The notes under the pieces: generated by a model
The model's database searches: none
Told to the model about the DNA's origin: nothing
Seen by the model: the letters and a program-made list of their open reading frames with translations, nothing else
Made by a program: the position numbers and the translations under genes
In this document: positions 13,031 to 62,788 of the stretch, piece after piece
Position numbering within the stretch: the stretch's first letter is position 1
Layout of the letters: every line of letters starts with the position of its first letter
From: a virus
Reading direction: 5' to 3' (one strand)
Virus record (IMG/VR): IMGVR_UViG_3300044648_000169
Location: 1-62,958 of that record
Length of the DNA: 62,958 nt

Positions 13031-13309
13031 CTAGGCCTCCAAAGCGGCGCGTTGCTTCTTGGCCCTCACAGCTTTTGGTGCGCCCGGCGCGCTGGCCAGT
13101 TCGGGCCAGATGGTTCGCCAGTCTTGTGGGCGCAGATCCCACCGCATCACCGCCCCGCCTGTCGCGGCCTCAATGGCCGAGCACCGACTTGCGGGCGCCG
13201 GCCTGGTGCCTGCAGCGATCTGGCTCAAGAATGACGACGGGATGCCAACCGCCGCTGCGAGGTCTTTCGCTCGCCCCTTCTGCTTTGCACACCAAGTCTG
13301 TAAGTCCAT
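13031..13309 (-). CDS. Cro/YdaS-type repressor
   Basis: A 92-residue protein. DLQTWCAKQKGRAKDLAAAV followed by IPSSFLSQIAAGTRPAPASR is a helix-turn-helix of the YdaS/Cro family. CSAIEAATGGAVMRWDLRPQ and the tryptophan after it complete the family pattern. It diverges from the CI-like gene and would repress the repressor promoter during lytic growth. The ATG lies just 6 bases after a likely -10 element and has no ribosome site, so the mRNA may be leaderless. Confidence 0.85.
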   Translation of the reverse strand: MDLQTWCAKQKGRAKDLAAAVGIPSSFLSQIAAGTRPAPASRCSAIEAATGGAVMRWDLRPQDWRTIWPELASAPGAPKAVRAKKQRAALEA

Positions 13310-13314
13310 GTATA

Positions 13315-13352
13315 GACTTTAGCATTGCAAAGTTTTCGATGCAAGCATTGCT
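13315..13352 (-). promoter_or_regulatory. leftward early promoter with repressor operators
   Basis: On the minus strand the sequence runs TTGCAT, 17 bases, TAAAGT, with a TGC just before the -10. The promoter spans AGCAATGCTTGC and ACTTTGCAATGCTAAA, whose half-sites are inverted relative to each other (GCATTGC and GCAATGC). An almost identical 38-base element lies at 16407-16444 facing right. By analogy this is the pR-type promoter bound by CI and Cro. Confidence 0.75.
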
Positions 13353-13377
13353 TCGTGCCGAAATCGACACTCAAGCG

Positions 13378-13980
13378 ATGCATATCGGGGAGCGGCTTAG
13401 AACGCTGGTCAAGGAGCGAGGGGTGGCGGTGAAGGCGTTGGCCTTGCACTGCGGCGTCACTACTGGCGCGGTCTCCAACTGGTTCCGCACCGGGCGGATT
13501 ACGAAGGAAAACCTGCTCGCTGCGGCCGAGTTCCTGGGGACCACAGCCGACGAGGTGATCTCAGGCGCCGCGCTTGATCGGTCGGCGCCCCAGGCGATGG
13601 CATCGCCCGCGTCAGCGCTCAACCTGCTCGCGCGAGCGTTGGCGGGGTTGCCCCGACTAGAGCGGCTTCAACTGGCCACGCTGCTTCCGTTGCTGGCAAC
13701 TGAGCCTGAGACCAGCCGGCAGACCATGCAGGCGATCCTGCGGCTGTTGGGGGCCGACCCCGTGGCCGCCGATGAGGTGGCGCGGGTGGACTTCAGTGAA
13801 CTTGCGCTGGACCTTGCAGAAAAGCTGGACGCCATTCCAGAGGGGCGGCGAGTTCGGGCGCACCGCGCTGCAAGCGTGGCGCTGTCACTGCAGGAGTTTC
13901 CCGACTCTGGCGATGCCACAGGCGACCGGCCCCCACCGCCAGGGCCGCGGCCTGGCTCGGGCTCGCGCAAACCGCGCTGA
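13378..13980 (+). CDS. CI-like XRE-family phage repressor
   Basis: A protein of 200 residues from the ATG at 13378. An ATG at 13339 would add 13 residues but lies inside the operator. The XRE helix-turn-helix is at residues 1-60: MHIGERLRTLVKERGVAVKA, then GVTTGAVSNWFRTGRITKEN. Behind it is a helical region probably used for dimerisation. No LexA/S24 protease domain is present, so induction would not use RecA-driven self-cleavage. It should maintain lysogeny by binding the two similar operators. The last 188 bases are overlapped by an opposite-strand gene. Confidence 0.82.
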   Translation: MHIGERLRTLVKERGVAVKALALHCGVTTGAVSNWFRTGRITKENLLAAAEFLGTTADEVISGAALDRSAPQAMASPASALNLLARALAGLPRLERLQLATLLPLLATEPETSRQTMQAILRLLGADPVAADEVARVDFSELALDLAEKLDAIPEGRRVRAHRAASVALSLQEFPDSGDATGDRPPPPGPRPGSGSRKPR

Positions 13981-14293
13981 GTAGCCCGGCTTGGGCCAGT
14001 GGGGCGATCACGCTGCTCACCTCATCCAACGGCTGCTGGTCGACCAGGAGCACCGCCGGTCGACCGCCGGCCTGGGTCGCCCACGCCTCCAGCAGGAATC
14101 GCACGTCCCCGGGACAGAGTTGGAGCGCATGGCCGGCGTCAACCAGCAGGCACTCAGGCGGGCCGATCAAAAGGGCCCGTGAAATCGCCCGCTCAATTTC
14201 CGCCTCACAAATGCCCTGCTTCAGCGTGATGCGAACAACATCACGATATGGCTGATCGACCGTCCAAGCGTTTGATGGCGCGGTTCGTGGCAT
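13793..14293 (-). CDS. unknown protein, possible STAS-like domain, convergent with the repressor
   Basis: A 166-residue protein from the ATG at 14293, which has AGGGGG 5 bases upstream. Residues 20-125 (VVRITLKQGICEAEIERAIS, LLVDAGHALQLCPGDVRFLL, GGRPAVLLVDQQPLDEV) read like alternating strands and helices similar to STAS or receiver folds. The C-terminal third is low-complexity and lies antisense to the end of the repressor gene. It shares a 72-base control region with the first luxR gene, which runs the other way. Function is unknown. Confidence 0.55.
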   Translation of the reverse strand: MPRTAPSNAWTVDQPYRDVVRITLKQGICEAEIERAISRALLIGPPECLLVDAGHALQLCPGDVRFLLEAWATQAGGRPAVLLVDQQPLDEVSSVIAPLAQAGLLSAVCASPSQAAALAVGAGRLWHRQSRETPAVTAPRLQRGAPELAAPLEWRPAFLQGPAQVH

Positions 14294-14365
14294 CAATTCC
14301 CCCTAGTGCTTTCCTGCACATTTTGCGGGGGCGGAAACACTTTGACACCTAGCAGAATTGCCGTC
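14294..14365. promoter_or_regulatory. divergent control region between the STAS-like and first luxR genes
   Basis: This 72-base gap contains an imperfect inverted repeat, AGTGCTTTCC (14305-14314) with GGAAACACT (14333-14341), and a TTGACA at 14342-14347. The TTGACA lacks a good -10 at normal distance, so I do not call a firm promoter. The inverted repeat may be a regulator site controlling both genes. Confidence 0.4.
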
Positions 14366-15115
14366 ATGAAATCCCTACGTGATGTCTTGATCTCGGAGGC
14401 TTTGGGCGGCCTGGGTAGCGCTCAGACGGCGCCGGAGTTCGGCGCCCTCGCGGAAAAGCTCACAGAGGGTTTCGGCATGGATCGGTACATCGTGATCGAC
14501 GTGCGTAACGGCACCCTGGCGGGGCTGCACCACAACGCGCCTGCCCACTTGAGCGCCGACATCGAAAACCTTGCCACCGCGGATTCGGACCCGATCCTCG
14601 GGAAGGCCCGAGTTTCGCGGATGCCATTTGCATGGGGTCGCGGCGACGGCGGCCCCTGGCGCGAGGCATATGGCAGCTTGGGGTATCACTCGGGAATCGC
14701 GGGCGTGACCTGGGACGGCGTGGGCTCCGGTGTCATCGCCCTGTTCTCTTCGGAGGCTGATGGCCTGCCGGAGGAAATTATCGGCTCGCTGCTCGGCTTC
14801 GTGGTGTTGGCGGCCGTGACGATGAGCACGCCGCTGCGCCGTTTGGCGCCCAGACCGCTGGCCGAATGCCCTTTCACGGCGCGCGAACTGGACTGCCTGC
14901 GCTACGCGCTGGCCGGTAAGTCGTCAAAGGAAACGGCGCGCTCGCTGGGCATTGGCGCGCGGACCGTGAACCAATACCTCGAACGAGCGCGCACCAGGCT
15001 CCAGGTCAAGACCACCTACGCCGCTGCCACGATAGCGCTGCGGCGTGGGTGGATCGACATGCAGGAAGCGTCGGAGCTGGCCGGCTTAGTTCCCGCCGCC
15101 ACCGGTGCGCGGTAG
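14366..15115 (+). CDS. LuxR-type quorum-sensing regulator (first)
   Basis: A 249-residue protein with the layout of LuxR family receptors. Residues 1-160 form an autoinducer-binding domain, with the family's DP pair (SDPIL) and a later tryptophan (MPFAWG) kept. The tryptophan and tyrosine that usually contact the acyl-homoserine lactone appear replaced by leucine and isoleucine in PAHLSADIE. The C-terminal LuxR helix-turn-helix is clear: FTARELDCLRYALAGKSSKE, then IGARTVNQYLERARTRLQVK. No luxI-type synthase is in the window, so it would sense host or foreign signals. It sits inside the immunity region, so it may bias lysis or lysogeny. Confidence 0.88.
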   Translation: MKSLRDVLISEALGGLGSAQTAPEFGALAEKLTEGFGMDRYIVIDVRNGTLAGLHHNAPAHLSADIENLATADSDPILGKARVSRMPFAWGRGDGGPWREAYGSLGYHSGIAGVTWDGVGSGVIALFSSEADGLPEEIIGSLLGFVVLAAVTMSTPLRRLAPRPLAECPFTARELDCLRYALAGKSSKETARSLGIGARTVNQYLERARTRLQVKTTYAAATIALRRGWIDMQEASELAGLVPAATGAR

Positions 15116-15169
15116 GTCGGCCGGGTTGTAGTCGCGGATGCCAAGCAGTGCCAGCAGGAAATCAAACAT
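15086..15169 (-). CDS. 27-codon small ORF downstream of a palindromic operator
   Basis: The frame runs from the ATG at 15169 to the TAA at 15086-15088, reading MFDFLLALLGIRDYNPADLP and a short glycine tail. A GGAG ribosome site lies 7 bases before the ATG. The N-terminal ten residues are hydrophobic. It overlaps the 3' end of the first luxR gene in antisense. A perfect 15-bp palindrome lies about 79 bases upstream. The arrangement matches known phage transcription factor-small protein modules, but the product itself is unproven. Confidence 0.5.
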   Translation of the reverse strand: MFDFLLALLGIRDYNPADLPRTGGGGN

Positions 15170-15221
15170 GGGTGGACTCCACAGAGGGTTGCGGTCAAAT
15201 CGACCGCTGTCCACTTTGAAG

Positions 15222-15283
15222 TCCCTAGCACGTTTCGCCTAGCTGCAAAACCTGTCAGGTTTACCGTCAGTGACAACTGAGGT
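15222..15283 (-). promoter_or_regulatory. palindromic operator and candidate promoter of the small ORF
   Basis: A perfect palindrome, AAACCTGTCAGGTTT, lies at 15248-15262. Next to it, at 15263-15283, is an imperfect dyad with TCAGT and ACTGA half-sites. LuxR proteins bind CTG-N-CAG-type dyads. On the minus strand the palindrome abuts TTGCAG, followed by a weak -10 (TAGGGA, 15222-15227). The palindrome would then be centred about 40 bases upstream of transcription start, where LuxR-type activators bind. A hairpin (GCGGTC with GACCGC, 15191-15207) lies in the leader. Confidence 0.5.
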
Positions 15284-15287
15284 AGGC

Positions 15288-16004
15288 CTAGTCGATCAAG
15301 CCCCCTTGAATACAAGTGAGCACCGCGCCTTGCACGGAGCTGGCGCCCAGTTTGCGCGCAGCGCTGCGCTGCCGCCGGGCCACCTCTGGCTGGCTGATGA
15401 CCATGCGCTGACCCACCTGCCAGGCGGTGTACCCGTCCTTGGCCCAGCGCAGGCTTTCGAGTTCGCCGGCATCCAAGACCGGGCTACCTGCCGGGGTCGG
15501 GGTAGAAATCCGCTGCAGCGCTGACTGCGCGTGCAGCGTGACCATCTGCACGGCCGCCTGCAGGCGCATGCGGACCACCGGGTCGATCGGCAGCGCGTCC
15601 GGGCGATCGAAGCCCAGCAAGAACTGCTCGAGGTGGCTGGGCTCGTGCACGCTGCACGCTACCCCGCAGCGGTAGCCGAACGACGCCTGCAGATCCCATA
15701 GATCCACCGCGCCCGCTTCGACGTAGGTGGACTGGTCATACAGCACGGGGACGATGTTGGAGCGCAGAGCCCGGATGACCGGATCACGCAGGGCATCGCT
15801 CAGCGACTGCTGTGCCACGACATAGGCATCTGGGGTGTTGCCAACCCCGAGCATCCAGGCATTCGCGGATCCCATGGCGCCGCGGATCAGCACCGCCGAG
15901 AACAGGCCGAAGCCCAGCTCGTGTGCTGCTGACGTCAGGCGGGACCGCAGGGTGTCGACGTCCGGCGACAGTCCTAGATCCAGGAGTTGCTGCTGAGAGA
16001 GCAT
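15288..16004 (-). CDS. LuxR-type quorum-sensing regulator (second)
   Basis: A 238-residue protein, weakly similar in layout to the first LuxR. The sensor domain keeps an RDPV motif (SDALRDPVIRALRSNIVPVL), and the pocket tryptophans appear replaced by tyrosines (NTPDAYVVAQ, PVLYDQSTY). The C-terminal DNA-binding domain (AGELESLRWAKDGYTAWQVG, then VARRQRSAARKLGASSVQGA) is recognisable but diverged. It follows the KTSC gene by 6 bases, so they are probably co-transcribed. It converges on the first luxR gene with the small ORF between them. Confidence 0.82.
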   Translation of the reverse strand: MLSQQQLLDLGLSPDVDTLRSRLTSAAHELGFGLFSAVLIRGAMGSANAWMLGVGNTPDAYVVAQQSLSDALRDPVIRALRSNIVPVLYDQSTYVEAGAVDLWDLQASFGYRCGVACSVHEPSHLEQFLLGFDRPDALPIDPVVRMRLQAAVQMVTLHAQSALQRISTPTPAGSPVLDAGELESLRWAKDGYTAWQVGQRMVISQPEVARRQRSAARKLGASSVQGAVLTCIQGGLID

Positions 16005-16010
16005 GGACCG

Positions 16011-16343
16011 CTATTGCGACGGAGTCCCGCCCTGTCTGCAATCGTAGTTGCCCTTGATGTTGGCGAGGTAGTAGCGCCCTAGGGACGGCGATGAACGCCA
16101 CGCCGCCACGGTCTCTGGCGGCATGCGGCAGTAGTGATACCAAGTGCCCTTGAGGTTCACCAGCAGGTAGCGGTCCGACAGCTTCCAGCAGGTACGCCAG
16201 ACCAGCGAGCTGGGTTGCTCCACGCAGTTGAAGCCCTTCAGGTCGACCTCGCCGTGGTACTTCACGAAAACCGTCTCGGCCGACGCGCCCATAGGCGCCA
16301 ACGCGAGCGCGGCCAGCATCACTTTCGTTCTCAGTGGTCCCAT
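16011..16343 (-). CDS. secreted KTSC-domain protein
   Basis: A 110-residue protein. Residues 1-22 are a signal peptide ending ASA. The mature part (ETVFVKYHGEVDLKGFNCVE, then CWKLSDRYLLVNLKGTWYHY, YYLANIKGNYDCR) matches the KTSC domain with its repeated NLKG/NIKG strands. Such proteins are found in phage and bacterial genomes and may act in the cell envelope; no activity is established. It has a strong ribosome site (AGGGAGGGG). It is transcribed away from the rightward operator, a position like that of lysogenic conversion genes. Confidence 0.75.
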   Translation of the reverse strand: MGPLRTKVMLAALALAPMGASAETVFVKYHGEVDLKGFNCVEQPSSLVWRTCWKLSDRYLLVNLKGTWYHYCRMPPETVAAWRSSPSLGRYYLANIKGNYDCRQGGTPSQ

Positions 16344-36074: not shown

Positions 36075-36512
36075 ATGAAACTCATCTTCACCCGCTCGCC
36101 AAGCTTCGCTGGCCACCTGATCCGCGCCTTTGAGGGCGGCGACTGGGACCACGTGGGCATCGTGGACGATGAACACGTCATTGAAGCCACCGTTTGGCAC
36201 GGCGTGCGCCGCCGCACCTTGGCTTCCATGCGCGCTGGCACCCGGCACGAGCTGGTGGAGGTGGCCTGTGATCCTCGCCTGGAGTCCGCGGCCCTGGCCT
36301 GGGCGCGTGGCCAGGTCGGCAAGCCCTACGACTTCGGCGCTGTGGTCGGTTTCCTGTTCTGGCGCAGCACCTGGGCCCGGCAAGGCGCCTGGTACTGCAG
36401 CGAGGCCGCCGCCTACTTCGCGGTGCTGTGCGGGCTGACGCTCGCCGGCAACCACCGGCGCATCGGCGTTCGCCTGATGCACGCCCTTTCCCATGCGTGG
36501 GGCCCCAAATGA
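36075..36512 (+). CDS. permuted papain-like hydrolase (YiiX/C92-like)
   Basis: A 145-residue protein. GGDWDHVGIVDDEHVIEATV carries the histidine and GAWYCSEAAAYFAV the catalytic-type cysteine of permuted NlpC/P60-related amidases, with QVGKPYDFGAVVGFLFW between. Such proteins cleave amide bonds in peptidoglycan or lipids. Its place just before a tail-spike gene suggests a virion-associated enzyme helping DNA entry. Confidence 0.72.
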   Translation: MKLIFTRSPSFAGHLIRAFEGGDWDHVGIVDDEHVIEATVWHGVRRRTLASMRAGTRHELVEVACDPRLESAALAWARGQVGKPYDFGAVVGFLFWRSTWARQGAWYCSEAAAYFAVLCGLTLAGNHRRIGVRLMHALSHAWGPK

Positions 36513-39500
36513 TCGGACACCGGCGCAAGGCGCGGTTGAACTGGCTGCTGCGGCAGCTCGGTGGCGGGGGCGGGGTCACGGGCGTGCGGCCCGTCATCAG
36601 CGGGAAAGAGATCCTCGACGAGAACGGCCAGGCCCTGACCATCCGCGGCATCAACCAGGGCACCTGGGGTGAGAACTTCGAGGTTGACGCGGACGACATC
36701 CAGGCGTTGGGTGCCAACTGCATCCGCACGGTGTTCCGCTGGTGGGGCCTGTATGGCGGCGCCGGCACCGACAGCCGCGACGATGGGGCCGCCAACTACA
36801 TCGACGCCGCCAACCTGGCGCAGCAACTGCAGGAGATTCAGTGGGCGACTGAACGCGGCATGTGGGTCATCGTCGCGTTCGATAGCAACTGCGGACAGAA
36901 CGGCCTGCAAAACGTCGACACCGAGGCCTACTGCGACCCGGGCGGCGCGTACCCCACCGAGGGGCGCAACTTCTTCAGCGACCTGACCACGCGCGAGTTC
37001 TTCAAGACGGCGTGGAAAGCGCTCGCGCTCGCCCTGGCGAGTACCCCGCGCATCCTCGCATTCGAGCTGCTGCCGGAGCCGCTGGAGGGCCGCGATTCAA
37101 CCTACGCGGACGACGTGCGCGACTTCTACCGCGACGTGATCGCCGCGATTCGCACGGTCGACACCGAGACGCCATTCCTGATCGGCTCGCGCGACGCCTA
37201 CAACATCACCCTGGCCGACGAGGCATGGCTGAGCGAGCGCACGGACGTGATCTACACCGGCAACATCCTGTCCGGGAAGATGACGGACGTGGTGGATCTG
37301 CCCGGCTACATCAAGGCCCTCACCGACATGCGCGACACGCGCAACGTGCCGGTGCTGGTGCAGCAGGTTGGCCGTGAGACGAGCGCCGACACGACGCTGA
37401 TGCACCTCAACGGCGGGCTGTCTGCCCTCAATGCCAACGGCGTGCATTGGACCTACTGGCAGTGGCACCAGAACACGACGAACCCTGACACCTACGCCCT
37501 GAACTACAAGGACGGCGTGGGTGGCTGGGTGCCAAAGACCGCCGAGATTGCGCGCGTCTCCTACTACTGCGGGCAGACCTATGCGGCGCTTGAGGCTGCT
37601 GCGCAGGCTGCTGCCACCGCCGCTGGCGGCTCGCTGTACTACGTCAAGCCCGACTTCTCTAACATCACCCAGGACTCGGCCGGCGCCACGCCGGTGACGG
37701 CGGTGGGTCAGCCGATCGGGCGCATTGCTCCGGTGGTTGGCTCAGCCGGGAACATCGCGCAAGCCACGGGGGCGGCCCGTCCTCTGCTGGGGCTGGTGAC
37801 AGCCACCGGCCGCCATGCAATGGTGTTCGACGGGTCGGACGACTACCTGCAGTTCGCCTCGATGTACTGGGCGTCTGGTGACGACACGACGGTCATCGCC
37901 TCGGGCATCCCAGCGGAGACGGCGACGAACCGGGTGTTCCTGCACTGCGGCGCGGGCACGGCCAACGCGCGGTATCCGTACCTGGGGCTGACCGCTGGCG
38001 ACGTGGGAACGGCCTCATGGCGCGGCGACGACACGACCATGCGCCAGATCGACGGCGCGCTGAACCTGAGCGACCGGCCGATCGTGCTGTCGGGCACCAA
38101 GATCGGGGCTGACAAAAAGCTGTTCACGAACGGCGTGCAAGAGGGCTCGACCAACACCGATGCGGTGGACGCCATCGCGTCACTCACCCGCATCCGCGTC
38201 GGCTCGGCCAGCACGACGACGGGCTATTTCAGCGGCCCGATCACGATGCTGTTCGTCGGCAAGACGGTGACGGACGGCCAGCGCCGGGACATCGAGCGCT
38301 TCGGCGCCTACCTGGCTGGCGCGGCTTACGCTGAGGTGGCAGCACCAGAAGCTGAAACCGTCCAGTCGCTGGGTATGTTTGGCGGCCAGTTCAAGGTCGA
38401 AGACACCGACATGGAGGTGCCGTTCCTTGACCTGATGGACCGGGCCCGCACGGTCGGCATCCTGTCCGCCGGCTACGGGAACTACGGGTTCGGGCCGCTG
38501 CGCGTGCAGAGCCTGGTCCGCTCGAGCAACGTGGTCACCGTCACGCTCGCGGATGCGCCTGGCCACGCGGCCGGCAGTTTCACGGCGATCACGGGTCAAC
38601 CCTTGACCCTGCACTGCATCACCGATCCCACGTTTGATGCGGAGGGCGTGCAGGTCACGGTGGCCAGTCAGACCAGCTTCACGTACCCCAACACCGGTTC
38701 TGATGGCGCAGCCAACATTGGCGGCCCCAGTGATGTCGCTGCCGCGCTGCTGGCGCGCGTGCAGCTCGGCGCAAGCGGGCACCCGATCGAAGACCACCGG
38801 GTCATCCTCACCAACCCGCAGGGCGGCACCACGCCGGACATCGCAGGCACGTACACGGTCACGTTCACCGGCACGCCGCCGGGCAGCGTGAGCTTCACCG
38901 GCTGCACGACGAGCGGCTACAGCGCAGGCGCCGCAAGCTTCAACATCACCGTCGCCGATCCGGCCATCCTGACGCTGGAAATGAACAGCGTCCCGACGAA
39001 CAACAGCTACCGCAACCCACGCATCATCCCGGTTGGCGAGGACCAGACAGGCGCCACGAAGTTGCGGCCGGACTTCGCAACCCACTGCGGCCGCGGCAAG
39101 GTCACCCGCTGGATGGACGCCTGGAAGACGAACGACAACCCGGTTCACAAGTCCTGGGCCCAGCGCCCGCTCATCAACCTTGGCACGGGCCTGCCGGCCG
39201 AGGTGGTCATTGACGCCTGCAACGAGGTGGAGCATCACTCGTGGTTCTGCCTGCCGGCGTTCGCCGCCGACGACTACGTGACGGGCCTGGCCACGCTGGC
39301 GAAAACCAGGCTTTCGGCTGCGCTCGACGCAATCTACGAGTACACGAACGAGCCGTGGAACCCCAGTTTCCAGCAGTACAACTGGCTGGCGGCAATGTCG
39401 AAGAAGGAAGTGGCTGGCATCTACCACGGCACCTACGGCTACAGCGAGATCGCGTCCCTGTCGAAGGCCGGCGGCACCGCCACGGTCGTTCTGGACCATC

Positions 39501-40792
39501 CGCTGCCAGCCGATTTCGTGACGGGCCTGCACATCGACGCCGTGATGACGGATGCCGACTTCGACGCGAGCGACGTGGCGATCACGGTCACGGGGGCGGA
39601 CACGTTCACGTACCCGGTGTCGGCCGGCACCGAGTCGGCGTCGAGCCTGAACGGTGCCATCTTTGGCAACCTGGCGAGCACGCTGCTGTCGGGTGGCATG
39701 CGCAACCTGGAGCGGATCCGCGCCCGCATGCTGGGCAAGGTGATCTACGACCAGTCGCAGCTCATCAAGACCGTCTATGACGGTGTGCTGAACGGACGCG
39801 CCAAGGTGGTGCTGATGTGGCAGTGCACGACGCATGGCTACGGTCAGGTGATCCGCGACACCCTTGAATGGCTGGTGGCCCAGTACGGGCCGCTGGCCGA
39901 CTGGTGTTACGCGATCGGCGGGGCCCCTTACCCACGGTGCAGCGGCACGACGTCAACAGACTTGGCGGATGCCTCCATCGCCGAGATGGACGACCTGTAC
40001 GCACCCTCTCTGCACTCAATCCGCTACCTGGCCAACCAGCACGGGGTCAAGGTGTGGTGCTACGAGGGCGGGGTCGACATGGTGAACGTGAACGTGGCGC
40101 GCACCGACGCAATGTTCACCTCGTCTGAGATGCGCCGCGCGCAGGAGCACTGCGTTCGCAAGGTCTTCAGTTCAGGCGCCGACCTCCTGGTGGGCTACAC
40201 GACGGGACAGCGTGAAGTCGGCAACCAGGGCAGTTTCTCCTGGGGCCTGGGCGAGTCGATCGCCGATCTGCTGCCGATCGGTACCGCCACGGCGCCGAAG
40301 GCCCAGGGCCTGGACGACGTTCTCCTGCTGCCTCCGCCAGCCATCGATGACCCCAGCCAACTGCCTGGCACCGTGCCGTTCATCGACATCGGCACGAGCG
40401 TCATGGCGTCGGACGACCAGTCAGCCGACGGCGCCGACGGCTTCAATCTCATCAACGGCATGGCCTGCTTCAAGTCGGCCGATTCGTACTGCGAAAAGAT
40501 GTTCTGGGCCGACACGGCTGGGACCAAGAACATCACCATCTACGGCAAGCACAGCGGCCAATTCGGCAGCGTCAACAACGCCGTTCGCATCTACCTGGAC
40601 GGCGTGCTGAAGGGGACGCACGCCCTGTTCGACGACAACACCGACGCCTTCACCGGCCCCGCGGGCGGCTCGGCGAGCCCGACGACGTTCGCGCTCACCG
40701 ACGTGGTTGAGGGCTGGAACGTGCTGCACCTGCGCGGCCCCGCCGGCGCGCAGCCTGACCGCATCGGTGTCAGCCGAGTCACAGCCCCCTAA
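36509..40792 (+). CDS. large multidomain tail-fibre/spike protein with glycoside-hydrolase-like domains
   Basis: A 1427-residue protein starting at the ATG at 36509 that overlaps the previous gene. Residues 30-350 resemble a GH5-type barrel: ILDENGQALTIRGINQGTWG, FELLPEPLEG with a candidate acid residue, and VLVQQVGRETS. About 380-605 reads as a LamG/concanavalin-like domain (HAMVFDGSDDYLQFASMYWA). A second hydrolase-like region has IYEYTNEPWNPSFQQYNWL near 940. The C-terminus looks carbohydrate-binding (NITIYGKHSGQFGSVNN). It probably binds and trims host surface sugars. Confidence 0.72.
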   Translation: MIGHRRKARLNWLLRQLGGGGGVTGVRPVISGKEILDENGQALTIRGINQGTWGENFEVDADDIQALGANCIRTVFRWWGLYGGAGTDSRDDGAANYIDAANLAQQLQEIQWATERGMWVIVAFDSNCGQNGLQNVDTEAYCDPGGAYPTEGRNFFSDLTTREFFKTAWKALALALASTPRILAFELLPEPLEGRDSTYADDVRDFYRDVIAAIRTVDTETPFLIGSRDAYNITLADEAWLSERTDVIYTGNILSGKMTDVVDLPGYIKALTDMRDTRNVPVLVQQVGRETSADTTLMHLNGGLSALNANGVHWTYWQWHQNTTNPDTYALNYKDGVGGWVPKTAEIARVSYYCGQTYAALEAAAQAAATAAGGSLYYVKPDFSNITQDSAGATPVTAVGQPIGRIAPVVGSAGNIAQATGAARPLLGLVTATGRHAMVFDGSDDYLQFASMYWASGDDTTVIASGIPAETATNRVFLHCGAGTANARYPYLGLTAGDVGTASWRGDDTTMRQIDGALNLSDRPIVLSGTKIGADKKLFTNGVQEGSTNTDAVDAIASLTRIRVGSASTTTGYFSGPITMLFVGKTVTDGQRRDIERFGAYLAGAAYAEVAAPEAETVQSLGMFGGQFKVEDTDMEVPFLDLMDRARTVGILSAGYGNYGFGPLRVQSLVRSSNVVTVTLADAPGHAAGSFTAITGQPLTLHCITDPTFDAEGVQVTVASQTSFTYPNTGSDGAANIGGPSDVAAALLARVQLGASGHPIEDHRVILTNPQGGTTPDIAGTYTVTFTGTPPGSVSFTGCTTSGYSAGAASFNITVADPAILTLEMNSVPTNNSYRNPRIIPVGEDQTGATKLRPDFATHCGRGKVTRWMDAWKTNDNPVHKSWAQRPLINLGTGLPAEVVIDACNEVEHHSWFCLPAFAADDYVTGLATLAKTRLSAALDAIYEYTNEPWNPSFQQYNWLAAMSKKEVAGIYHGTYGYSEIASLSKAGGTATVVLDHPLPADFVTGLHIDAVMTDADFDASDVAITVTGADTFTYPVSAGTESASSLNGAIFGNLASTLLSGGMRNLERIRARMLGKVIYDQSQLIKTVYDGVLNGRAKVVLMWQCTTHGYGQVIRDTLEWLVAQYGPLADWCYAIGGAPYPRCSGTTSTDLADASIAEMDDLYAPSLHSIRYLANQHGVKVWCYEGGVDMVNVNVARTDAMFTSSEMRRAQEHCVRKVFSSGADLLVGYTTGQREVGNQGSFSWGLGESIADLLPIGTATAPKAQGLDDVLLLPPPAIDDPSQLPGTVPFIDIGTSVMASDDQSADGADGFNLINGMACFKSADSYCEKMFWADTAGTKNITIYGKHSGQFGSVNNAVRIYLDGVLKGTHALFDDNTDAFTGPAGGSASPTTFALTDVVEGWNVLHLRGPAGAQPDRIGVSRVTAP

Positions 40793-53484: not shown

Positions 53485-56400
53485 ATGCCGATTGCACGCT
53501 TTGAACTGCCAGACGGTCGCATCGGCCGCTTCGAGGTGCCGGACGGCACGAGCGAGGACGATGCGATCTCCCTGATACAGCAGCACCTGGCCGACAACCC
53601 GGTGGCAGACAAGGCCGCGCGCCCGCTGCCCGAAGGCGTGACGCCATCGGATGCCGGCGCCGGCCGCGGCAGCGTGCGCCCGCACGGCCCGACGCTGCGT
53701 GAACGGCTGTTCGATCCCAGCGTGCGAACCGCCCCGCAGCCTGTCCAGCGCCGCGGCGGCACGCGGTCGGAGGCTCGGCCGTTCGTGGCCACCGGGCGCG
53801 ACACCACGGCAGCCGAAGTAGGCGAGGCCATCGGCGGAACCCTGGCCGGCACAGCGGCCCTGGGCATGGAGAAGGGCCTGGGGGTCATGCTGGACCTGCA
53901 GAACAGCGAAGGCCGCGAGCCCGAGGCGCCGCCGCTGGACAACGCGCTGGAAGAACCGCCCGCCTACCCGCCGAACCAGCAGGAGGCGATTGCCCGGCAG
54001 AGCCTGCGCCCGGAAGTTGCCCAGCGCCGAGCGCGCGAGGCCAGCGCGCCGGCCGAGGCCCGGCCGTTCTCCACCGGCCAGAACATGGCCACCGACGTGC
54101 GCGAGGCCACGCAGAACCCGGTGGCGCGCGGCGTCGCGCAGGGCATTGGAACCATCGGCAAGGTGGGCCCGGGCGCACTGCGCATTGCGGCCGACTTCCT
54201 CGGCTCTGAGGGTCTGGGCGACCTGGCCAAGGCATCCGGCCGCGCCGCGGATGAGTTCTCCGGTGGCGTCACCAGCGATCTCAAGGGCAACGACAAGCTG
54301 GTGGCGCAGATCACCGGCTCCATCGTCAACTCGGCGCCTTCGCTCGCGCTGGGCGTGGTCGGCGGCCCGGCCCTCAAGACCCTCTTTGTCCAGTCCGCCC
54401 TGTCGGAATACAACGCCGGCCGCGATGCCGGGTTCGCGCCGGAAGAATCTCTGATGCGGGCCGGCATCATGGGCTTCGCCGAGGCCATCGGCGAACGCGC
54501 GGGCTTCCCTGAGCAGATCAAGCTGCTGAAGTCCCTGGCCAAGCACGTGCCCACCGATCGCCTATCGAAGGTCTTCGGCGACATGCTGGCCAAGGAGATC
54601 CCGGGCGAACAGTTGACCACCGCCCTGCAATTCATGGCGGACAAGGCGGGCCCGGCGGCGCTGAGCCCGGACGCCACGCTGGCCGACTACCTGGACCAGG
54701 CCGGCGAGACCCTGAAGGTCACCATCGGCCAGACGGCGGTGATGGGCGGCGGCCCGGCGGCGGTCGGCACCACGCGCAACGCGCTGCGCAAGGCGGACGC
54801 CGGTGCCACGTCGGCCGCGCCAGACCCCGCGGTGATCCTGGCCAGCGCCATCGACCAGGCCGCCAACGACTTCGGCCTGAGCCCCAAGGCCACCGCCGCG
54901 CTGCGGGACAAGGCCAACACCATGCCCGCCGAACAGGCCGCGGGCTTCGTGGAGCGCGCGCTGGCCGAGTTCGAGCGCGGCAACCTGGTGCGCAAGCCCG
55001 GCGCGGCGGCCGGCTTCAAGCAGACCCTGAACGACCTGGCCGAGAAGGCGCAGGCCGAAGCCGAGTCCCAACCGGCCGAGCCGGAAGCAGCGCCCGCGCC
55101 CGAAGCCGCACCAGAGCAAACGCGCTTCGACGCTGGCGCCATGCTGGAAGGCGACGACTTCAGCGGACTGGACACCCCGGCGCAAGCCGGCCCGGCAATG
55201 ACCGCCCCGGGTTCAAGTGCGGTCGAAGAAGGAAGCCCCGATGCAGAAGTAGAAGCCATTGATTCGTCGTCGACAGCGGCGCAGGTAGGAGTGCCTGCGT
55301 CGCCCATCGAAGGCGAGCCCATCAATCGCAACTGGTCGGCTTTCACACCCGAATCCGGCAGCCTTGGCATTCCCAGGGAGCAGATGCCCCAGGTGAAGGC
55401 TGAGCACCGAGGCGCGCTCACCAACTTCCTGAACGCCCGCGGCATCACACACGAATCCGGCGAGGTGCCGGCGCATGTGCTGCGCCCGACGCAAGCCGAG
55501 TTCTCGCCCCGCAAGGTCGAGCAGGCCGCCGACTTCACCGGCGGCAACCGGGCCGTGCTGGTGAGCAAGGACGGTTTCATCATCGACGGCACCCACCAGT
55601 GGGCGGCCGCCCGCGAGGCCGGCGCGGCGATCAAGGTGATCCGCTTCGACGCCCCCATTCAAGACCTGCTGCGCCTGGCCCAGCAGTTCCCCAGTTCGTT
55701 CTCATCGGGAGGTGCCAGCCGTGCTGGAAGTGGACCTGGATATGCCGAGCCTGCCGGACCTGCTGGAGCAGGGGCTGCTGACCCAGATGCAGGCGGACGA
55801 ACTGAACCACTGGTTCAAGGCGAGCTGCAACAGCCGGTACCCGCTGGAACTGCCGGAACCCCTGTACCGGGCCCTGCTGTACGCGACGGCGCTGGCGCAG
55901 ATGGACCTGGAGCGGGAAACGATGCACTGACGGTCGGCGCCGCGGTGGAGTTGGGCGGCAAGCCCTACACCGTCAAGGCCAAGAGCCCGAAGGTCATCCG
56001 CCTGACTGGCGAGGACGGCAAGGTCCGGGTCATCAGCAGCGACTCGGCCAACTGGTCGAAGATCAAGCCAGCGACTGCGAAGCCAGCAGCCCCCACCGAA
56101 GAATTCGCCGGCAAGCATGGCGAAGGCATGGCCGAGCACGTCGCCAAGGCCAACGCCATCCGCCTGCGCAAGGAGCGCCCGGACCTTGAATGGACCGTGG
56201 CCGAAGCCGACCCCGCCCGTAACCCCAAACTGAAAGCCGACCGCTATGTCGTTCAGGGCCGCCCGCTTCAACCCCAAGCCCCGGCAGCAGAAGCAGGAGC
56301 GCAGGCGGGAGGCGTGGAGCCGGCAGGATCAGCAGGAGAGGCCGCTGCCGCTTCCGGATCCGCCCAGGTGGAAGCCGATGGGCTGAGGGCGCAGCCGGCG

Positions 56401-59400
56401 CGCAAGACCCCGACCACCGCCCGCAGCAAGGCCCCGAAGGCGAAGAAGGCGCGCAAGGTCATGGACTCCTGGGTGCTGGGCGAGATCGTCCACCGACTGG
56501 GCGGCATCGGGCTGGGCCTGCGGGCGGACCTGTCCAGCAAGGCGCTGCGCGAGCGCACCAACAAGACAACCGGCAAGGTGACCCAGTACACCGCCTGGCG
56601 CGGCGACGGCATGCTGTTCCGCGCCACCGGATCGACCGACCTGACCGAGATTGCGCAGGTGCTGGAAGAGGCCGGGTTCCTGGAGCCCGGGCTGGTGGAG
56701 CGTGACTACCTCGAGGCCACCAGCCGGGTGCAGGACATCATCAAGGCCGAGATCGCCAAGCCCGGCAGCACGCAGGCATTCGGTGCGATCGAGGACCAGG
56801 CGCGCCAGCGCGATGAAGACGCCCGAGCCGAGCACGAGGAACGCGAACAAGCCGAACTGGACGAGTGGCTGCACGGCGAACTCGACATTCAGGCCGCCAA
56901 CCTCCCCGCCGAACCGGAGGCGCACAATACCGCCCTGGAACTGGCCCGCCTTCTGAACGAAGCGGCCGAAGCCGGCGTTGACGTCGACTCACTGAAGGAC
57001 GACTTCTTTGCATCGTCCGATCCCGAATGGAGCCAGGAAGCCTATGACACCCGCCTTGCCCAAACTCTCCGTGACGCTGCCGCCCGAACTCGTGTCGAAG
57101 CTCGACGCGATGACACCGGAACTGCGCGAGCAGACGATCCAGTCAGCCGCCCGGCTGGCGTCGATCAAACTCGGGCGCCGGGTGACGGGGCAAATGGACC
57201 TGACGATGCCATTCGATCCGAAGAAGAAGCCCGCCCAGGGCTGACCCTCGCCGCCGAGACCCCGGCCGACGCTCAGGCCAAGGCCGCCCGCGAAGCCGAA
57301 GCCCTCGCCTCAGAGCGGAAGGCCAAAGACGCCGAGCAGGCGCGGCTGAAGAAGGAAGCCGACGAGCGCGAGGTGCGCGCCCGGGCGGATTCCAGCGTCG
57401 ATGACTTCCAGCTCGGGCAGAGCGCGGATCAGCAGTTGTCGGGGCAGCGGGACATTTTCAGCGCCTCGCCGCCACCCAAGCGCCAAACCAAGGTCACGCC
57501 GCAGGTCCCCAGCGCCAGCCAACTCGCTTCCTTCATTGGCATCGCCGCGGACTCGGCGCAGGCGCTGCGGCGCTCGGATGTTGAACGCGTCTTGCGCGAG
57601 GCGCCGGTGCACTTCCGCGTCGGGCTCGCAGCCCACATCCAAGCCAGGCGGCCGGATCTCACTGACGAGGTGGACGAGGTGCTGGCGGAACTGAACCAAG
57701 CACCGCCGCAAATGAAGCGCGGCACCAGCGCCGGCCTGCCCCTGGCCACCGCCCGCAAGACCATCGCCGCCTTTGAGGCCCAGGGTGTGCGCAAGGTCAA
57801 CCTCGCCGCCACCCTGGCCGACATGCCCCAGGCCCGGCGCGACGCCATCCTGGCGACCGACCCGAGCGGCCGGGTGCGCGGCGCGTACTTCCCTAGCGCC
57901 GATGAGGTGTGGGTGATCGCCGAGAACCTGGGCAGCGAGCGCGAGCTGGTCGACGTGGTGCTGCACGAGTCCTTCCACCGCGGCCTGCACGTCACCTTCG
58001 GCGCCGATGGCGCCAAGCTGCTGCGGCAAATCTACGCCACCAACAAGAGCGTGCGCGTGCTGGCCGACAAGCAGATGGAGCGCTTCGGCCTGAGCAAGGA
58101 AGAGGCGACCAACGAAGCCTTGGCAGACTTGGCCATGACCAACCAGGTGCAGAACCTGAACGGCTGGACCCGGCTGCTGCGCATGATCCAGGCCTGGCTC
58201 GGCAAGATCGGCCAGGCGCTGGGGATCGAGTTGAAGTTCACCGACAAGATGGTGGTGGACCTGATCGCCGGGATGACGCGTGCGGGCCTGCAGCCGAACG
58301 TGGCGCCGGCGCCCGACACCAGCAAGCAGGACCGGGCCGCCGCCATCAGCGAGCAGGTGGCTGAGGGCAAGAGCTTTGCGGAGGCCACCAGCGAGGTGGC
58401 GTTGAGCCGCAAACCCAGCTACACCCCCGAGCAGAAGGCCGCCCTGGGCAAAGCCGGCGTGTCCGGTCCCGTGTCCCTGAAGGGCAAGCTGCAGCGCCAC
58501 TACAGCGCGGCGATGAACCTGCTGGCCGACCGGCACGCGCTGGCGGCCGAAGCGCAGCAGGGCCTGCTGGACCAGTTCACCGGCATCAAGCGTGCCGTGC
58601 AGCGCGACGTGGGCAACCTGCCGGTGGAGCAAGACCCCTACGTGGCGGCCCGGCTCGCCAACGGCGGCGCCTCTTCGGTGATGCGCGCCCTGCTGCTGCA
58701 CGGCCAGGCGAAGTGGGCGGCCAACGGCCAGCACCTCGAGAAGATCGACGGCACCAAGGGCCTGCTGGACATCCTCGCCCCGCTGGGCGACGACCTGAAC
58801 GACTGGTTCGGCTGGATGATCGGCAACCGCGCCGCGCGCCTGATGGGCGAGGGCCGGGAAAACAACTTCACCCCTGCCGACATCAAGGCGCTGCGGTCCC
58901 TGGCCACGCCAGCGAAGAAGGCGGCATTCCAGAAGGCGGCCCTGCAGTACGCCGCCTTCAAGCGCTCGGTGCTCGACGTGGCCCAGGACGCAGGCCTCAT
59001 CAACGCTGAGGCGCGCAAGGCCTGGGACTACGCCGACTACATCCCCTTCTATCGCCAGATCGACGAGAAGTCGACCTTCAGCCCCACCGGGCGCAAGGGC
59101 CTGGCCGGGCAGTCGTCGGGCATCCGCTCGCTCAAGGGTGGCGAGAACGCGCTGAACGACCCGATGGAGAACCTGCTGATGAACTTCAGCCGGTTGATCG
59201 ACGCCAGCCTGAAGAACAACGCCTTGCGCAAGACCGTCGACACCCTGAAGGCGGCCAAGTCCGACGCGGTGGTGAAGATCGGCTACGACATGACGTCGCA
59301 ACTGATCCCGGCCGAGCAGGTGAAGCAGCGGCTGGTGGAGGCGGGAACGCCGCAGCAGATCCTGGACGTGATCCCGCCCGAGGCCTTCGACGGCATGGCC

Positions 59401-61083
59401 AAGATGTGGGCGGTGCAGGCTCCGAGCGACCCGGACGTGATCCGCCTCATGGTCGACGGCAAACCACAGTTCTACCGGGTGGAAGACCCCCTGCTGCTGA
59501 AGGCGCTGACCAGCTTTGTGCCGTTCGACTTCCCCGGCCTTGGAATGATGCGGTGGTTCAAGCGCCTGCTGACCAGCACGGTCACGGCGGCCCCGGACTT
59601 CGTGGCCCGCAACTTCATCCGGGACACGGTGGCGGCGCAGATGATCACCCGCGACGGGTTCAACCCGGGCAAGTCGCTGCAGGGGGTGGCCAAGTCCCTG
59701 CGCGAGAGCGGCGGGTTCGAGCACATGCTGTTCGCCGGCGCGAGCTTCCAAAGCGGCAATGTCAACGCGGCCGACCCAACCGGGACCGGCCGAGCCATCC
59801 GGCGGGCGCTGCGGAAGAAGGGCTTTGACGCCTCGTCCGTCGACGCATTCACGGGCTCGGTCATCGACACCGGCCTGAAATTCTGGGAGAAGTACCGGCA
59901 CTTCAGCGAGGCGATCGAGAACGCCAACCGCGAAGCGGTGTTCGATGCAGCAACCAAGGGCGGCAAGACCGTCACGGCGGCGGCCTTCGAGTCCAAAGAC
60001 CTTATGGATTTCTCGCTGCGCGGCTCGTGGGCGGCCTACCAGATCCTCGCCGACGTGGTGCCGTTCCTGAACGCCCGCGTGCAAGGCCTGTACCGCCTGG
60101 GGCGCTCCGATCCCAAGCGCGTGGTGGTGCTGGGCCTGCTGATGACCGCGGCCACCCTGGCGCTGGCGTGGGCCAACGACGGCAACGACGAGTACGAGGG
60201 CCTGGCAGACTGGGACAAGGACACCTACTGGCACTTCTGGATCGGCGGCGAGCACTTCCGCTTGCCGAAGCCGTTCGAGCTGGGCGTGGTCTTCGCCACC
60301 ATCCCCGAGCGGGTGATGCGCTTCGCGCGTGGCCAGGACGGCGGCGGCAAGACCGCCGGCCGGCTGTGGGCCAACGTGCGCGACCAGTTTGCCTTCGACC
60401 CGGTGCCGCAGATGATCCGCCCGTGGATGAACGTGTGGGCCAACAAGGACACCTTCCGCGGAACCCCCATCGAGGGCATGGCCGACGAAGGCAAGCCGCC
60501 GCACCTGCGTTACTCGGCCAGCACCTCAGAAACCACCCGGGAACTGCTGGACCTGACCAAGCCGGTCACCGACCCGCTGGCCCTGAGCCCGAAGAAGCTG
60601 GAGTACCTGGTGAACGCCTACACCGGCGCCGCCGGCTTCTACGCCCTGGCCCTGTCCGACATTGCCGTACGCGCCATGACCGACGCCCCGCCGCAGCCCG
60701 AGATGCGCGCCGACGACATCCCTGTGGTCAAGGCCTTCTACCGGGTCAACCCGGCACGTGGCACGGTTTGGGAGAGCGACCTGTACGACATGCGCGCGGC
60801 GGCCGAGGAAATCTACCGCGGGGTCAAGGCGCTGGAGCGCGAGGGTGACCTGGAGCGCGCCACCGAACTGACCGAGGACAACTTGGACAAGCTCGGCGCC
60901 CGCACGGTGCTAGACGAGGCCGGCAAGCGCCTGGCGGGGATCAACAAGCAGCGCGACAAAATCTACCGCGACCCGGACATGAGCCCGGCCGAGAAGCGCC
61001 AGCAGCTCGATGAACTGCTGAAGCTCAAAGCCGAGATCGCGCGCAACGCGGTGGAGCACCCGGCCGTGACCGAGGCCTTCTGA
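53485..61083 (+). CDS. giant polyvalent internal virion protein (2532 aa)
   Basis: The N-terminus (MPIARFELPDGRIGRFEVPD, then SEDDAISLIQQHL) is a small domain typical of phage ejected proteins. A ParB-like segment lies near residues 660-730 (FSPRKVEQAADFTGG, VSKDGFIIDGTHQWAAAREA). A zinc metallopeptidase-like HEXXH (LHESFHRGLH) is near 1494, with a downstream glutamate (TNEALADLA) near 1540. Residues from about 2035 (DFVARNFIRDTVAAQMITRD) resemble the LPD38 polyvalent-protein domain. Such proteins enter the host with DNA and counter host functions or aid entry. Two linkers contain nested out-of-frame genes. Confidence 0.85.
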   Translation: MPIARFELPDGRIGRFEVPDGTSEDDAISLIQQHLADNPVADKAARPLPEGVTPSDAGAGRGSVRPHGPTLRERLFDPSVRTAPQPVQRRGGTRSEARPFVATGRDTTAAEVGEAIGGTLAGTAALGMEKGLGVMLDLQNSEGREPEAPPLDNALEEPPAYPPNQQEAIARQSLRPEVAQRRAREASAPAEARPFSTGQNMATDVREATQNPVARGVAQGIGTIGKVGPGALRIAADFLGSEGLGDLAKASGRAADEFSGGVTSDLKGNDKLVAQITGSIVNSAPSLALGVVGGPALKTLFVQSALSEYNAGRDAGFAPEESLMRAGIMGFAEAIGERAGFPEQIKLLKSLAKHVPTDRLSKVFGDMLAKEIPGEQLTTALQFMADKAGPAALSPDATLADYLDQAGETLKVTIGQTAVMGGGPAAVGTTRNALRKADAGATSAAPDPAVILASAIDQAANDFGLSPKATAALRDKANTMPAEQAAGFVERALAEFERGNLVRKPGAAAGFKQTLNDLAEKAQAEAESQPAEPEAAPAPEAAPEQTRFDAGAMLEGDDFSGLDTPAQAGPAMTAPGSSAVEEGSPDAEVEAIDSSSTAAQVGVPASPIEGEPINRNWSAFTPESGSLGIPREQMPQVKAEHRGALTNFLNARGITHESGEVPAHVLRPTQAEFSPRKVEQAADFTGGNRAVLVSKDGFIIDGTHQWAAAREAGAAIKVIRFDAPIQDLLRLAQQFPSSFSSGGASRAGSGPGYAEPAGPAGAGAADPDAGGRTEPLVQGELQQPVPAGTAGTPVPGPAVRDGAGADGPGAGNDALTVGAAVELGGKPYTVKAKSPKVIRLTGEDGKVRVISSDSANWSKIKPATAKPAAPTEEFAGKHGEGMAEHVAKANAIRLRKERPDLEWTVAEADPARNPKLKADRYVVQGRPLQPQAPAAEAGAQAGGVEPAGSAGEAAAASGSAQVEADGLRAQPARKTPTTARSKAPKAKKARKVMDSWVLGEIVHRLGGIGLGLRADLSSKALRERTNKTTGKVTQYTAWRGDGMLFRATGSTDLTEIAQVLEEAGFLEPGLVERDYLEATSRVQDIIKAEIAKPGSTQAFGAIEDQARQRDEDARAEHEEREQAELDEWLHGELDIQAANLPAEPEAHNTALELARLLNEAAEAGVDVDSLKDDFFASSDPEWSQEAYDTRLAQTLRDAAARTRVEARRDDTGTARADDPVSRPAGVDQTRAPGDGANGPDDAIRSEEEARPGLTLAAETPADAQAKAAREAEALASERKAKDAEQARLKKEADEREVRARADSSVDDFQLGQSADQQLSGQRDIFSASPPPKRQTKVTPQVPSASQLASFIGIAADSAQALRRSDVERVLREAPVHFRVGLAAHIQARRPDLTDEVDEVLAELNQAPPQMKRGTSAGLPLATARKTIAAFEAQGVRKVNLAATLADMPQARRDAILATDPSGRVRGAYFPSADEVWVIAENLGSERELVDVVLHESFHRGLHVTFGADGAKLLRQIYATNKSVRVLADKQMERFGLSKEEATNEALADLAMTNQVQNLNGWTRLLRMIQAWLGKIGQALGIELKFTDKMVVDLIAGMTRAGLQPNVAPAPDTSKQDRAAAISEQVAEGKSFAEATSEVALSRKPSYTPEQKAALGKAGVSGPVSLKGKLQRHYSAAMNLLADRHALAAEAQQGLLDQFTGIKRAVQRDVGNLPVEQDPYVAARLANGGASSVMRALLLHGQAKWAANGQHLEKIDGTKGLLDILAPLGDDLNDWFGWMIGNRAARLMGEGRENNFTPADIKALRSLATPAKKAAFQKAALQYAAFKRSVLDVAQDAGLINAEARKAWDYADYIPFYRQIDEKSTFSPTGRKGLAGQSSGIRSLKGGENALNDPMENLLMNFSRLIDASLKNNALRKTVDTLKAAKSDAVVKIGYDMTSQLIPAEQVKQRLVEAGTPQQILDVIPPEAFDGMAKMWAVQAPSDPDVIRLMVDGKPQFYRVEDPLLLKALTSFVPFDFPGLGMMRWFKRLLTSTVTAAPDFVARNFIRDTVAAQMITRDGFNPGKSLQGVAKSLRESGGFEHMLFAGASFQSGNVNAADPTGTGRAIRRALRKKGFDASSVDAFTGSVIDTGLKFWEKYRHFSEAIENANREAVFDAATKGGKTVTAAAFESKDLMDFSLRGSWAAYQILADVVPFLNARVQGLYRLGRSDPKRVVVLGLLMTAATLALAWANDGNDEYEGLADWDKDTYWHFWIGGEHFRLPKPFELGVVFATIPERVMRFARGQDGGGKTAGRLWANVRDQFAFDPVPQMIRPWMNVWANKDTFRGTPIEGMADEGKPPHLRYSASTSETTRELLDLTKPVTDPLALSPKKLEYLVNAYTGAAGFYALALSDIAVRAMTDAPPQPEMRADDIPVVKAFYRVNPARGTVWESDLYDMRAAAEEIYRGVKALEREGDLERATELTEDNLDKLGARTVLDEAGKRLAGINKQRDKIYRDPDMSPAEKRQQLDELLKLKAEIARNAVEHPAVTEAF
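55721..55930 (+). CDS. nested gene 1 within the giant gene (69 aa)
   Basis: From a GTG at 55721 with GGGAGG 8 bases upstream. The product MLEVDLDMPSLPDLLEQGLL, then TQMQADELNHWFKASCNSRY and EPLYRALLYATALAQMDLER looks like a well-folded helical protein. In the giant gene's frame the same DNA encodes a glycine/alanine/proline-rich linker, so coding constraint seems to lie in this frame. The role is unknown. Confidence 0.65.
   Translation: MLEVDLDMPSLPDLLEQGLLTQMQADELNHWFKASCNSRYPLELPEPLYRALLYATALAQMDLERETMH
57044..57244 (+). CDS. nested gene 2 within the giant gene (66 aa)
   Basis: From an ATG at 57044 with AGGAAG 3 bases upstream and GGAG further up. The product MTPALPKLSVTLPPELVSKL, then DAMTPELREQTIQSAARLAS ends in a basic tail (DPKKKPAQG). 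The strand-helix start suggests a ribbon-helix-helix-like domain. The giant frame in this place is a charged low-complexity linker, so this frame probably carries the function. Confidence 0.6.
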   Translation: MTPALPKLSVTLPPELVSKLDAMTPELREQTIQSAARLASIKLGRRVTGQMDLTMPFDPKKKPAQG

Positions 61084-61756: not shown

Positions 61757-62788
61757 ATGGCGAGCTTCAGGAAACGGCCCAGCAAGAAGTGGCCGAGTGG
61801 CGTGCAGGCGACCGTCGACATTGCCGGCGCTGGCGAGGCCAGCGAGACCCTGCCGAACATGCGCGAGGCGCGCATCTGGGCGGCCGAGAAGGAAGCCGAA
61901 CTTCGGGCCGGGCTGTCGGGCGCCTTCCCCAGGAAGACGCTGGGCGACGCCCTGGACCGGTACGAGCGCGAGGTGACGTCCCACAAGCGCGGCAAGCGCT
62001 GGGAGTCCGCCCGCATCGGGCACATGCAGCGCGAATTCCCTGAGCTGTGCGCCAAGGTGCTGCACAAGATGACAGCGGCCGACTGGTCGGCCTGGCGCGA
62101 CGCCCGGCTGCGTGGTGCGGGGAAGCGCCAGGCGGTGTCGAAGGGGACCGTGCAGCGAGAGATCAACCTGTACCGCAACGTCTGGTCGATCGCCGCCAAG
62201 GAATGGCGGTGGTGCGCCGAGCCCTCCCCGTTCCGCTCGATGCGCATGCCCGGCGACAACCCCGCGCGCCAGCGCATGGTGTCCTGGCAAGAAGCTCGAG
62301 CATTGGCCAGGCGGATGGGCTACCGCACCGGCCGCCGGCCCGAGGACAAGTCCGGCGAACTCGCCTACCTGCTGCTGCTGGCGCTGGCCACCGGAATGCG
62401 GACCGGGGAACTGCTGAGCCTCACCGGTGAGACCGTGGACCTGCAGCGCCGGGTGGCGCGGCTGGACGTGCACAAGACGCTGGAGAAGGCCGGCGTGCGC
62501 CACGTGCCCCTGCCCCGCCGCGCGGCCCGCCTGCTGGCGCCGCTGCACCGCGAGGGCCGGCTGTTCACGCTCACCGCGGACTCAGCCGATGCGCTGTTCC
62601 GCAAGTACCGCGACCAGCTCATGATCGATGGGCTGACGTTCCGGGACACCCGGGCGACGGCGCTGACGCTGTTGTCCAGGAGGGTGGATCTGCTGACGCT
62701 GACCAGGATTTCCGGCCACCTCGACCCGCGGCAGATCAGCGAGGTGTACTACCGCGAGCGGGCCGAGGACATTGCCGCGCGGATCTGA
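61757..62788 (+). CDS. int: tyrosine-type phage integrase
   Basis: A 343-residue protein with AAGGGG upstream of the ATG. The N-terminal 60 residues resemble an arm-binding domain, followed by a core-binding helical domain (LGDALDRYEREVTSHKRGKR). The catalytic domain has the first arginine in TGMRTGELLSL, a divergent box II (LTFRDTRATALTLLSRRVD) where the usual HxxR reads FRDTR, and ISGHLDPRQISEVYYRE with histidine and the nucleophilic tyrosine. It recombines the two att repeats; its stop lies 84 bases before the right one. Confidence 0.93.
   Translation: MASFRKRPSKKWPSGVQATVDIAGAGEASETLPNMREARIWAAEKEAELRAGLSGAFPRKTLGDALDRYEREVTSHKRGKRWESARIGHMQREFPELCAKVLHKMTAADWSAWRDARLRGAGKRQAVSKGTVQREINLYRNVWSIAAKEWRWCAEPSPFRSMRMPGDNPARQRMVSWQEARALARRMGYRTGRRPEDKSGELAYLLLLALATGMRTGELLSLTGETVDLQRRVARLDVHKTLEKAGVRHVPLPRRAARLLAPLHREGRLFTLTADSADALFRKYRDQLMIDGLTFRDTRATALTLLSRRVDLLTLTRISGHLDPRQISEVYYRERAEDIAARI

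Follow-up and report, generated by a model that had tools for sequence, protein, structure and literature searches.

LuxR proteins are the textbook receptors of acyl-homoserine lactones, and to our knowledge the signals that act on most LuxR solos have yet to be identified. In the arbitrium system of Bacillus phages, the receptor AimR is a TPR-type RRNPP protein and the pre-peptide is exported. The Rgg-SHP systems of streptococci consist of a receptor and, encoded beside it, a short hydrophobic peptide that lacks a leader and has a conserved C-terminal end, while Qtip of Vibriophage VP882 is an antirepressor. The combination of a double-glycine leader with a C39 exporter is typical of bacteriocins and of peptide pheromones alike. 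In Aeromonas phages, an XRE-LuxR pair is accompanied by a small ORF in the opposite orientation, the product of which inactivates the repressor (PMC10432266). Here, we analyze a virus record of 62,958 bases, the whole of which is called the window, and compare a module of two LuxR-type genes and a small ORF in its lysogeny region with related loci in other phages and in Burkholderiaceae. The presence of a receptor and an often exported peptide in the bacterial relatives suggests Gram-negative peptide signaling that has been borrowed by phages.

The Lysogeny Region of the Window

The window encodes an integrase (61757–62788), a portal, a terminase, a major head protein and a RecT-like annealing protein, and it therefore very likely stems from a temperate phage. 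Megablast of positions 1–25000 found no DNA similarity to deposited phages, and a kinship with Bcep22-like phages, an idea that came from the JC1 paper, was dropped on this ground. Very long ORFs are present in the late region at 53485–61083 (2532 aa) and 36428–40792 (1454 aa).

A YdaS/Cro-like HTH protein is encoded on the minus strand at 13031–13309 (PF15943, E 4e-11; phrog_35, E 3e-14), followed on the plus strand by a phage repressor of the HTH_3 type at 13339–13980 (PF01381, E 4e-6). A domain search of this repressor gave no match to the peptidase S24 self-cleavage domain, which fits, without proving, a control that is independent of DNA damage. Between the repressor and the rightward genes that start near 16415 lie two convergent genes, here called A and B, that together span 14366–16004. 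An ORF of unassigned family lies between the repressor and B (13793–14296, minus strand) and has a counterpart by position in the related viral contig L003 (7528–8046), and a KTSC-domain protein with a signal-peptide-like start is encoded immediately upstream of A and on the same strand (16011–16343). Tblastn against deposited phages yielded no match for A and only weak matches for B, with less than 40% identity and none spanning 80% of the protein. LuxI had no match in the whole record, with a model that does score in other Burkholderiaceae genomes.

A Three-Gene Module in Six Phages and Prophages

Comparison of the window with L003 exposed a third gene in the gap between A and B, on the strand of A, which is absent from the preliminary description of this DNA. 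This small ORF (15086–15169, minus strand) encodes 27 aa, MFDFLLALLGIRDYNPADLPRTGGGGN, with the tail LPRTGGGGN, and it shares 30 nt at its 3′ end with B. The genes A, small ORF and B and their promoter layout are common to six loci, i.e., the window, three other viral contigs (L003, L004, and L042) and two prophages (L080 and L081) that adjoin repressor-like genes in Burkholderiaceae genomes, so that the convergent pair is conserved and not a one-off. The genome searches detected no B-type gene outside the three-gene module; among 401 Burkholderiaceae genomes, such genes are confined to two, exactly those with a prophage A gene and small ORF. A DNA scan with the degenerate codons of the PRTGG tail returned 35 viral stretches, and the matches to this motif were mostly chance-like, the real ones being L014 (the contig of L004) and L042 only. 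The latter was retrieved by the small-ORF motif alone and then shown to hold both A and B.

The (L)PRTGG tail and a ribosome-binding site are kept in all six loci, with synonymous codon differences in the tail between them. Besides that of the window, the peptides are MVQFFLSLIGVLDLPRTGGGGA (L004), MATLFALIFGTPRTGG (L003), MSIFAALAELFSLPRTGGGGF (L042), MSFISILSFIALALPRTGGGW (L080), and MSFFAAFLEVFSLPRTGGGW (L081). The phage peptide has neither a double-glycine leader nor a C39-ABC exporter gene, and an NCBIfam search with it and nine host peptides gave no family at cut-off.

Several elements precede the small ORF. An exact palindrome, GCGGTC-N5-GACCGC (15191–15207), is a putative operator; GGTC-N5/6-GACC occurs just 5′ of the ribosome-binding site, at the same place, in six of six loci, and across the whole window the GGTC palindrome was not above chance when mismatches were allowed. 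A -10-like hexamer, CAAAGT (15213–15218, minus strand; GATAGT-like elsewhere), is weak when taken alone, and its position is conserved in the alignment, about 37 nt from the center of a lux-box-like dyad in all six loci. The dyad itself, CTGACA-N4-TTGCAG (15243–15258, minus strand), is a putative activator site of the small ORF. Each of the six gaps between A and the small ORF contains CTGACA and a second half-site, and three have the perfect form CTGACA-N4-TGACAG. The lux-box pattern across the window was not above chance on its own, and the dyad is taken as meaningful because its position is conserved in six diverged loci. A LuxR protein would bind this dyad, and A or B would control the small ORF, which in all six loci lies beside a transcription factor gene and has its own promoter-like region with the dyad upstream.

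Two LuxR-Type Proteins With Complementary Decay

A (15288–16004, minus strand, 238 aa) is a LuxR-type, putative sensor protein with a kept ligand domain and a decayed HTH, and B (14366–15115, plus strand, 249 aa) is a LuxR-type protein with a conserved HTH and a divergent ligand domain. The profile search proposed in the preliminary description did match both expected Pfam families, but A exceeds the cut-off for Autoind_bind only (E 6e-13; GerE below it at E 7e-4) and B for GerE only (E 1.9e-11; Autoind_bind below it at E 0.0011). The AlphaFold models of A and B (pLDDT 78 and 69) were matched by Foldseek to SdiA/RhlR/QscR (E about 1e-12) and TraR/QscR (E 3e-10), respectively. What had been said of the general layout, namely a temperate phage with two convergent LuxR-type regulators in its lysogeny region, no synthase gene, and the D-P pair kept in both proteins, is borne out. 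The altered aromatic pocket residues that had been ascribed to both proteins apply to A, where alignment shows changes at three of six classical pocket residues (TraR W57 to Y, Y61 to Q, and W85 to Y); in B, the equivalent of W85 is apparently retained, judged by eye from the sequence (...FAWGRG...).

All six phage A proteins keep D70, P71, and G113 (TraR numbering), have Y in place of W57 and W85, and have lost Y61; the full lactone pocket of six residues (W57, Y61, D70, P71, W85, and G113) is thus missing from phage A. The retained D-P pair may leave room for some lactone-like ligand of A. Over the six loci, the ligand domain of A has a mean identity of 51% and its HTH one of 35%, versus 58–71% for the HTH in hosts. 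The HTH threonine is gone in six of six phage A proteins, and most of the HTH is deleted in L003, the domain being decayed in the other five. In B, the HTH has a mean identity of 51% and the ligand domain one of 24%. The earlier picture of two receptors that each read host signals finds no support, as it stands, in this pattern, in which A keeps the ligand domain and loses the HTH while B does the reverse; judged from their sequences, A and B resemble a single receptor in two halves more than they do two receptors.

Related Receptors and Peptide Genes in Burkholderiaceae

A search of genome contigs with the A profile gave one named relative, L007 from a Burkholderiaceae MAG, which is followed by a tiny ORF ending LPRGGGF. 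A-type LuxR-solo receptors are present in 103 of 401 Burkholderiaceae genomes (E 1e-30); class-wide they were found in 1 of 369, the query genome itself. The majority of the A-type host loci inspected have a tiny peptide gene 3′ of the receptor. A peptide ORF led by a Shine-Dalgarno sequence, starting at +40 to +240 and ending P-x-(W or GG), follows 38 of 62 A-type genes, and the same pattern occurs in 2.0% of shuffled sequences and in 2.3% of the regions downstream of other genes, control rates that carry more weight than any P value because the motif was partly learned from the same loci. The pattern mostly fails at genes in the interior of tandem luxR arrays and at variants that do not conform to it. 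In L115, L116, L117, L118, and L119, 3–5 A-type luxR genes are clustered; peptide genes are few there, as a rule a single one that follows an end member.

The host peptides fall into two classes. In class one, a double-glycine leader precedes a short mature part, in most cases with a C-terminal W, for example STPVKGW, VPAPKNTW, TDLPKKVW, APRPMW, and, twice, TPRGGW; exceptions are L095, L099, L101, and L104, in which the sequence extends beyond the motif. Often the mature part is only 6–12 residues long, with a conserved short motif at its end. The peptides of class two lack a leader, typically end LPxxGG, and mostly have a hydrophobic stretch followed by LP[RK]xGG, like the phage peptides. Precursors built of repeat units occur at L076:3884–4045 (CTPRGGSW repeats) and in L113 (TPRGGW, two copies).

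Genes for an HlyD protein and a C39-peptidase ABC protein lie 3′ of the peptide gene at 19 of 22 double-glycine loci versus 0 of 16 leaderless ones (Fisher P 9e-8, a value that ignores the shared ancestry of the loci). A luxR gene, a double-glycine peptide gene, HlyD and C39-ABC stand in a row in L102:3368–7903, L088, L098, L113, and L115, and the peptides of these loci matched no curated NCBIfam family. ABC-2 type transporter genes, with a possible immunity or extra export function, are found near several double-glycine loci. Most host loci also contain a gene akin to a 150-residue protein that matches DUF4902 (RsaM family), usually below the Pfam cut-off; L102:2839–3291 and its equivalents are such RsaM-like genes near a host A-type luxR.

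A strong LuxI match is lacking in 96 of the 103 host genomes with A-type receptors, and in the remaining seven the listed LuxI is not adjacent to the A-type gene. There was no negative link between A-type receptor and LuxI across genomes (7/103 vs. 22/298, P 1), so LuxI is mostly missing in A-type genomes, yet not specially excluded from them. The solo family, present in roughly one in four of the Burkholderiaceae genomes sampled, is linked with short peptide genes of its own, many of them with exporter genes.

In a tree of 60 A-type proteins, six phage ones included, the phage proteins form one clade (support 100/100) that groups with hosts of leaderless peptides (99/97). This position points to a host receptor-peptide pair as the source, and the module probably descends from a Burkholderiaceae LuxR-type receptor gene followed by a short-peptide gene.

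Possible Functions of the Module

We regard it as slightly on the probable side that the phages captured a LuxR-peptide pair and split the receptor, with A as the sensor, B as the DNA-binding part and the peptide as the ligand of A. The peptide, in place of an acyl-homoserine lactone, is favored as ligand because host relatives of the small ORF are found next to receptors of the A type and, in many cases, an exporter. In this mechanism, A would sense a peptide ending LPRTGGG, of which the phage or related hosts would be the source, and would act on B through an A:B heterodimer or by titration. B, on the lux-box-like dyad, would control the small ORF and so feed back on the signal, and the output would shift the balance against the nearby repressor. 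Since this repressor has no self-cleavage domain, induction would track the peptide level set by neighboring lysogens or hosts, and not DNA damage alone. The gene position indicates that the module probably tunes lysis-lysogeny. The lack of an export leader on the phage peptide would count against the proposed movement between cells.

For the wider family, the chances seem evenly balanced that Burkholderiaceae possess a LuxR quorum sensing in which an often exported peptide replaces LuxI and its lactone, and of which phages captured the leaderless branch with an arbitrium-like use and an A/B split. If the peptide is the ligand, this would be LuxR-based peptide signaling in Gram-negative bacteria, and temperate phages would possess a peptide-operated switch akin to arbitrium; once demonstrated, a peptide ligand would make this a system of a new kind. 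Peptides of this length can be synthesized, which makes the idea directly testable.

The peptide may also be the output of the module, for example a bacteriocin or an antirepressor, in which case it would not be the ligand. A lysis module in which A and/or B respond to a ligand and induce the small ORF as an intracellular antirepressor, the peptide not being a signal, is a tentative alternative that we consider unlikely. It follows the nearest published phage design, that of the Aeromonas phages (PMC10432266), with which the window shares the position in the lysogeny region, and the dyad 5′ of the small ORF and the repressor without S24 agree with it. However, peptides with the same tail occur beside chromosomal A-type receptors, where there is no phage repressor and where one class has a leader and an exporter, and the published small ORFs are without homologs while that of the window has them.

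Much less probable is that the module eavesdrops on the host with two LuxR receptors for acyl-homoserine lactones, the signal assumed in the preliminary description. The LuxR fold and the D-P pair of both proteins speak for it, C4-HSL-binding phage LuxR proteins are on record (PMC6456758), and proteins like the RsaM-type ones encoded near the host receptors also occur in lactone systems. However, A lacks the set of W57, Y61, and W85, the A protein of L003 has no HTH, and the ligand domain of B is poorly conserved. A host lactone as the signal finds no positive support: strong LuxI matches are scarce in A-type host genomes, and at most of the A-type host loci inspected the receptor gene is instead followed by one for a small peptide. 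The conserved small ORF would also be left without explanation.

A bacteriocin-like or membrane-active peptide under LuxR control, exported as a toxin in one host class, is likewise very doubtful, for although such leaders and C39 exporters are usual for bacteriocins (as for pheromones) and the leaderless forms have a hydrophobic N-terminal stretch, the mature parts are often very short with a conserved closing motif, no immunity gene was recognized near the host loci (the ABC-2 transporter genes near some of them aside), and the linkage to a single receptor family is tight.

Comparison With Known Systems

A peptide ligand for a LuxR-type sensor, the reading that we prefer, can be set against several described systems. 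In open-access papers, preprints excluded, we found no description of LuxR proteins with encoded or double-glycine-leader peptides or of the motifs, and that literature likewise yielded no account of the split LuxR pair, of a small ORF with relatives in hosts or of the LuxR-peptide-exporter loci of the hosts. Arbitrium is similar in that, within a lysogeny region, the gene of a short peptide comes after that of the receptor, but A and B both have LuxR folds where an RRNPP/TPR receptor would be expected, and the phage peptide is without a recognized export signal. Rgg-SHP differs in its receptor family and hosts, which are unrelated to those of the window. PipR/OryR LuxR solos resemble the proposed system as peptide-responsive LuxR homologs that require an ABC peptide importer, but the active tripeptide is exogenous and needed at high concentration, and the part of that source drawn on here describes no encoded cognate peptide (PMC4981722). 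In CerM-CerN of Cereibacter sphaeroides, a LuxR homolog without HTH counteracts a full-length partner (PMC11655674); there the interaction is lactone-dependent, whereas in the phage module the HTH has been decayed in five loci and deleted in L003, and antagonism is only putative. The type 6 topology of rsaM and luxR solos, in which an rsaM-type gene adjoins a LuxR solo in opposite orientation, recurs at several host loci, but peptides are not mentioned there (PMC10710839), and the peptide and exporter genes are new here.

Among phages, VqmA-Qtip of VP882 also joins a signal receptor to an adjoining small-protein gene, but DPO is the ligand of VqmA (PMC6456758), and the protein families are unrelated to those of the window. 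The Aeromonas phages Apop and ARM81ld share with the window a temperate-phage LuxR receptor that adjoins a small ORF (PMC6456758; PMC10432266). In them, the LuxR protein controls the small ORF, while that of the window is placed for such control. In place of an XRE-LuxR pair, the window has two LuxR-type proteins of complementary decay: the partner of A is the convergent second LuxR-type gene, and the HTH_3 repressor is separate and on the strand opposite to A. One host protein of the A family shares less than 30% identity with the LuxR protein of ARM81ld, and the small ORF of the window differs in that its tail motif recurs in host peptides. Of the published kinds, the phage LuxR-smORF module (PMC10432266) comes nearest.
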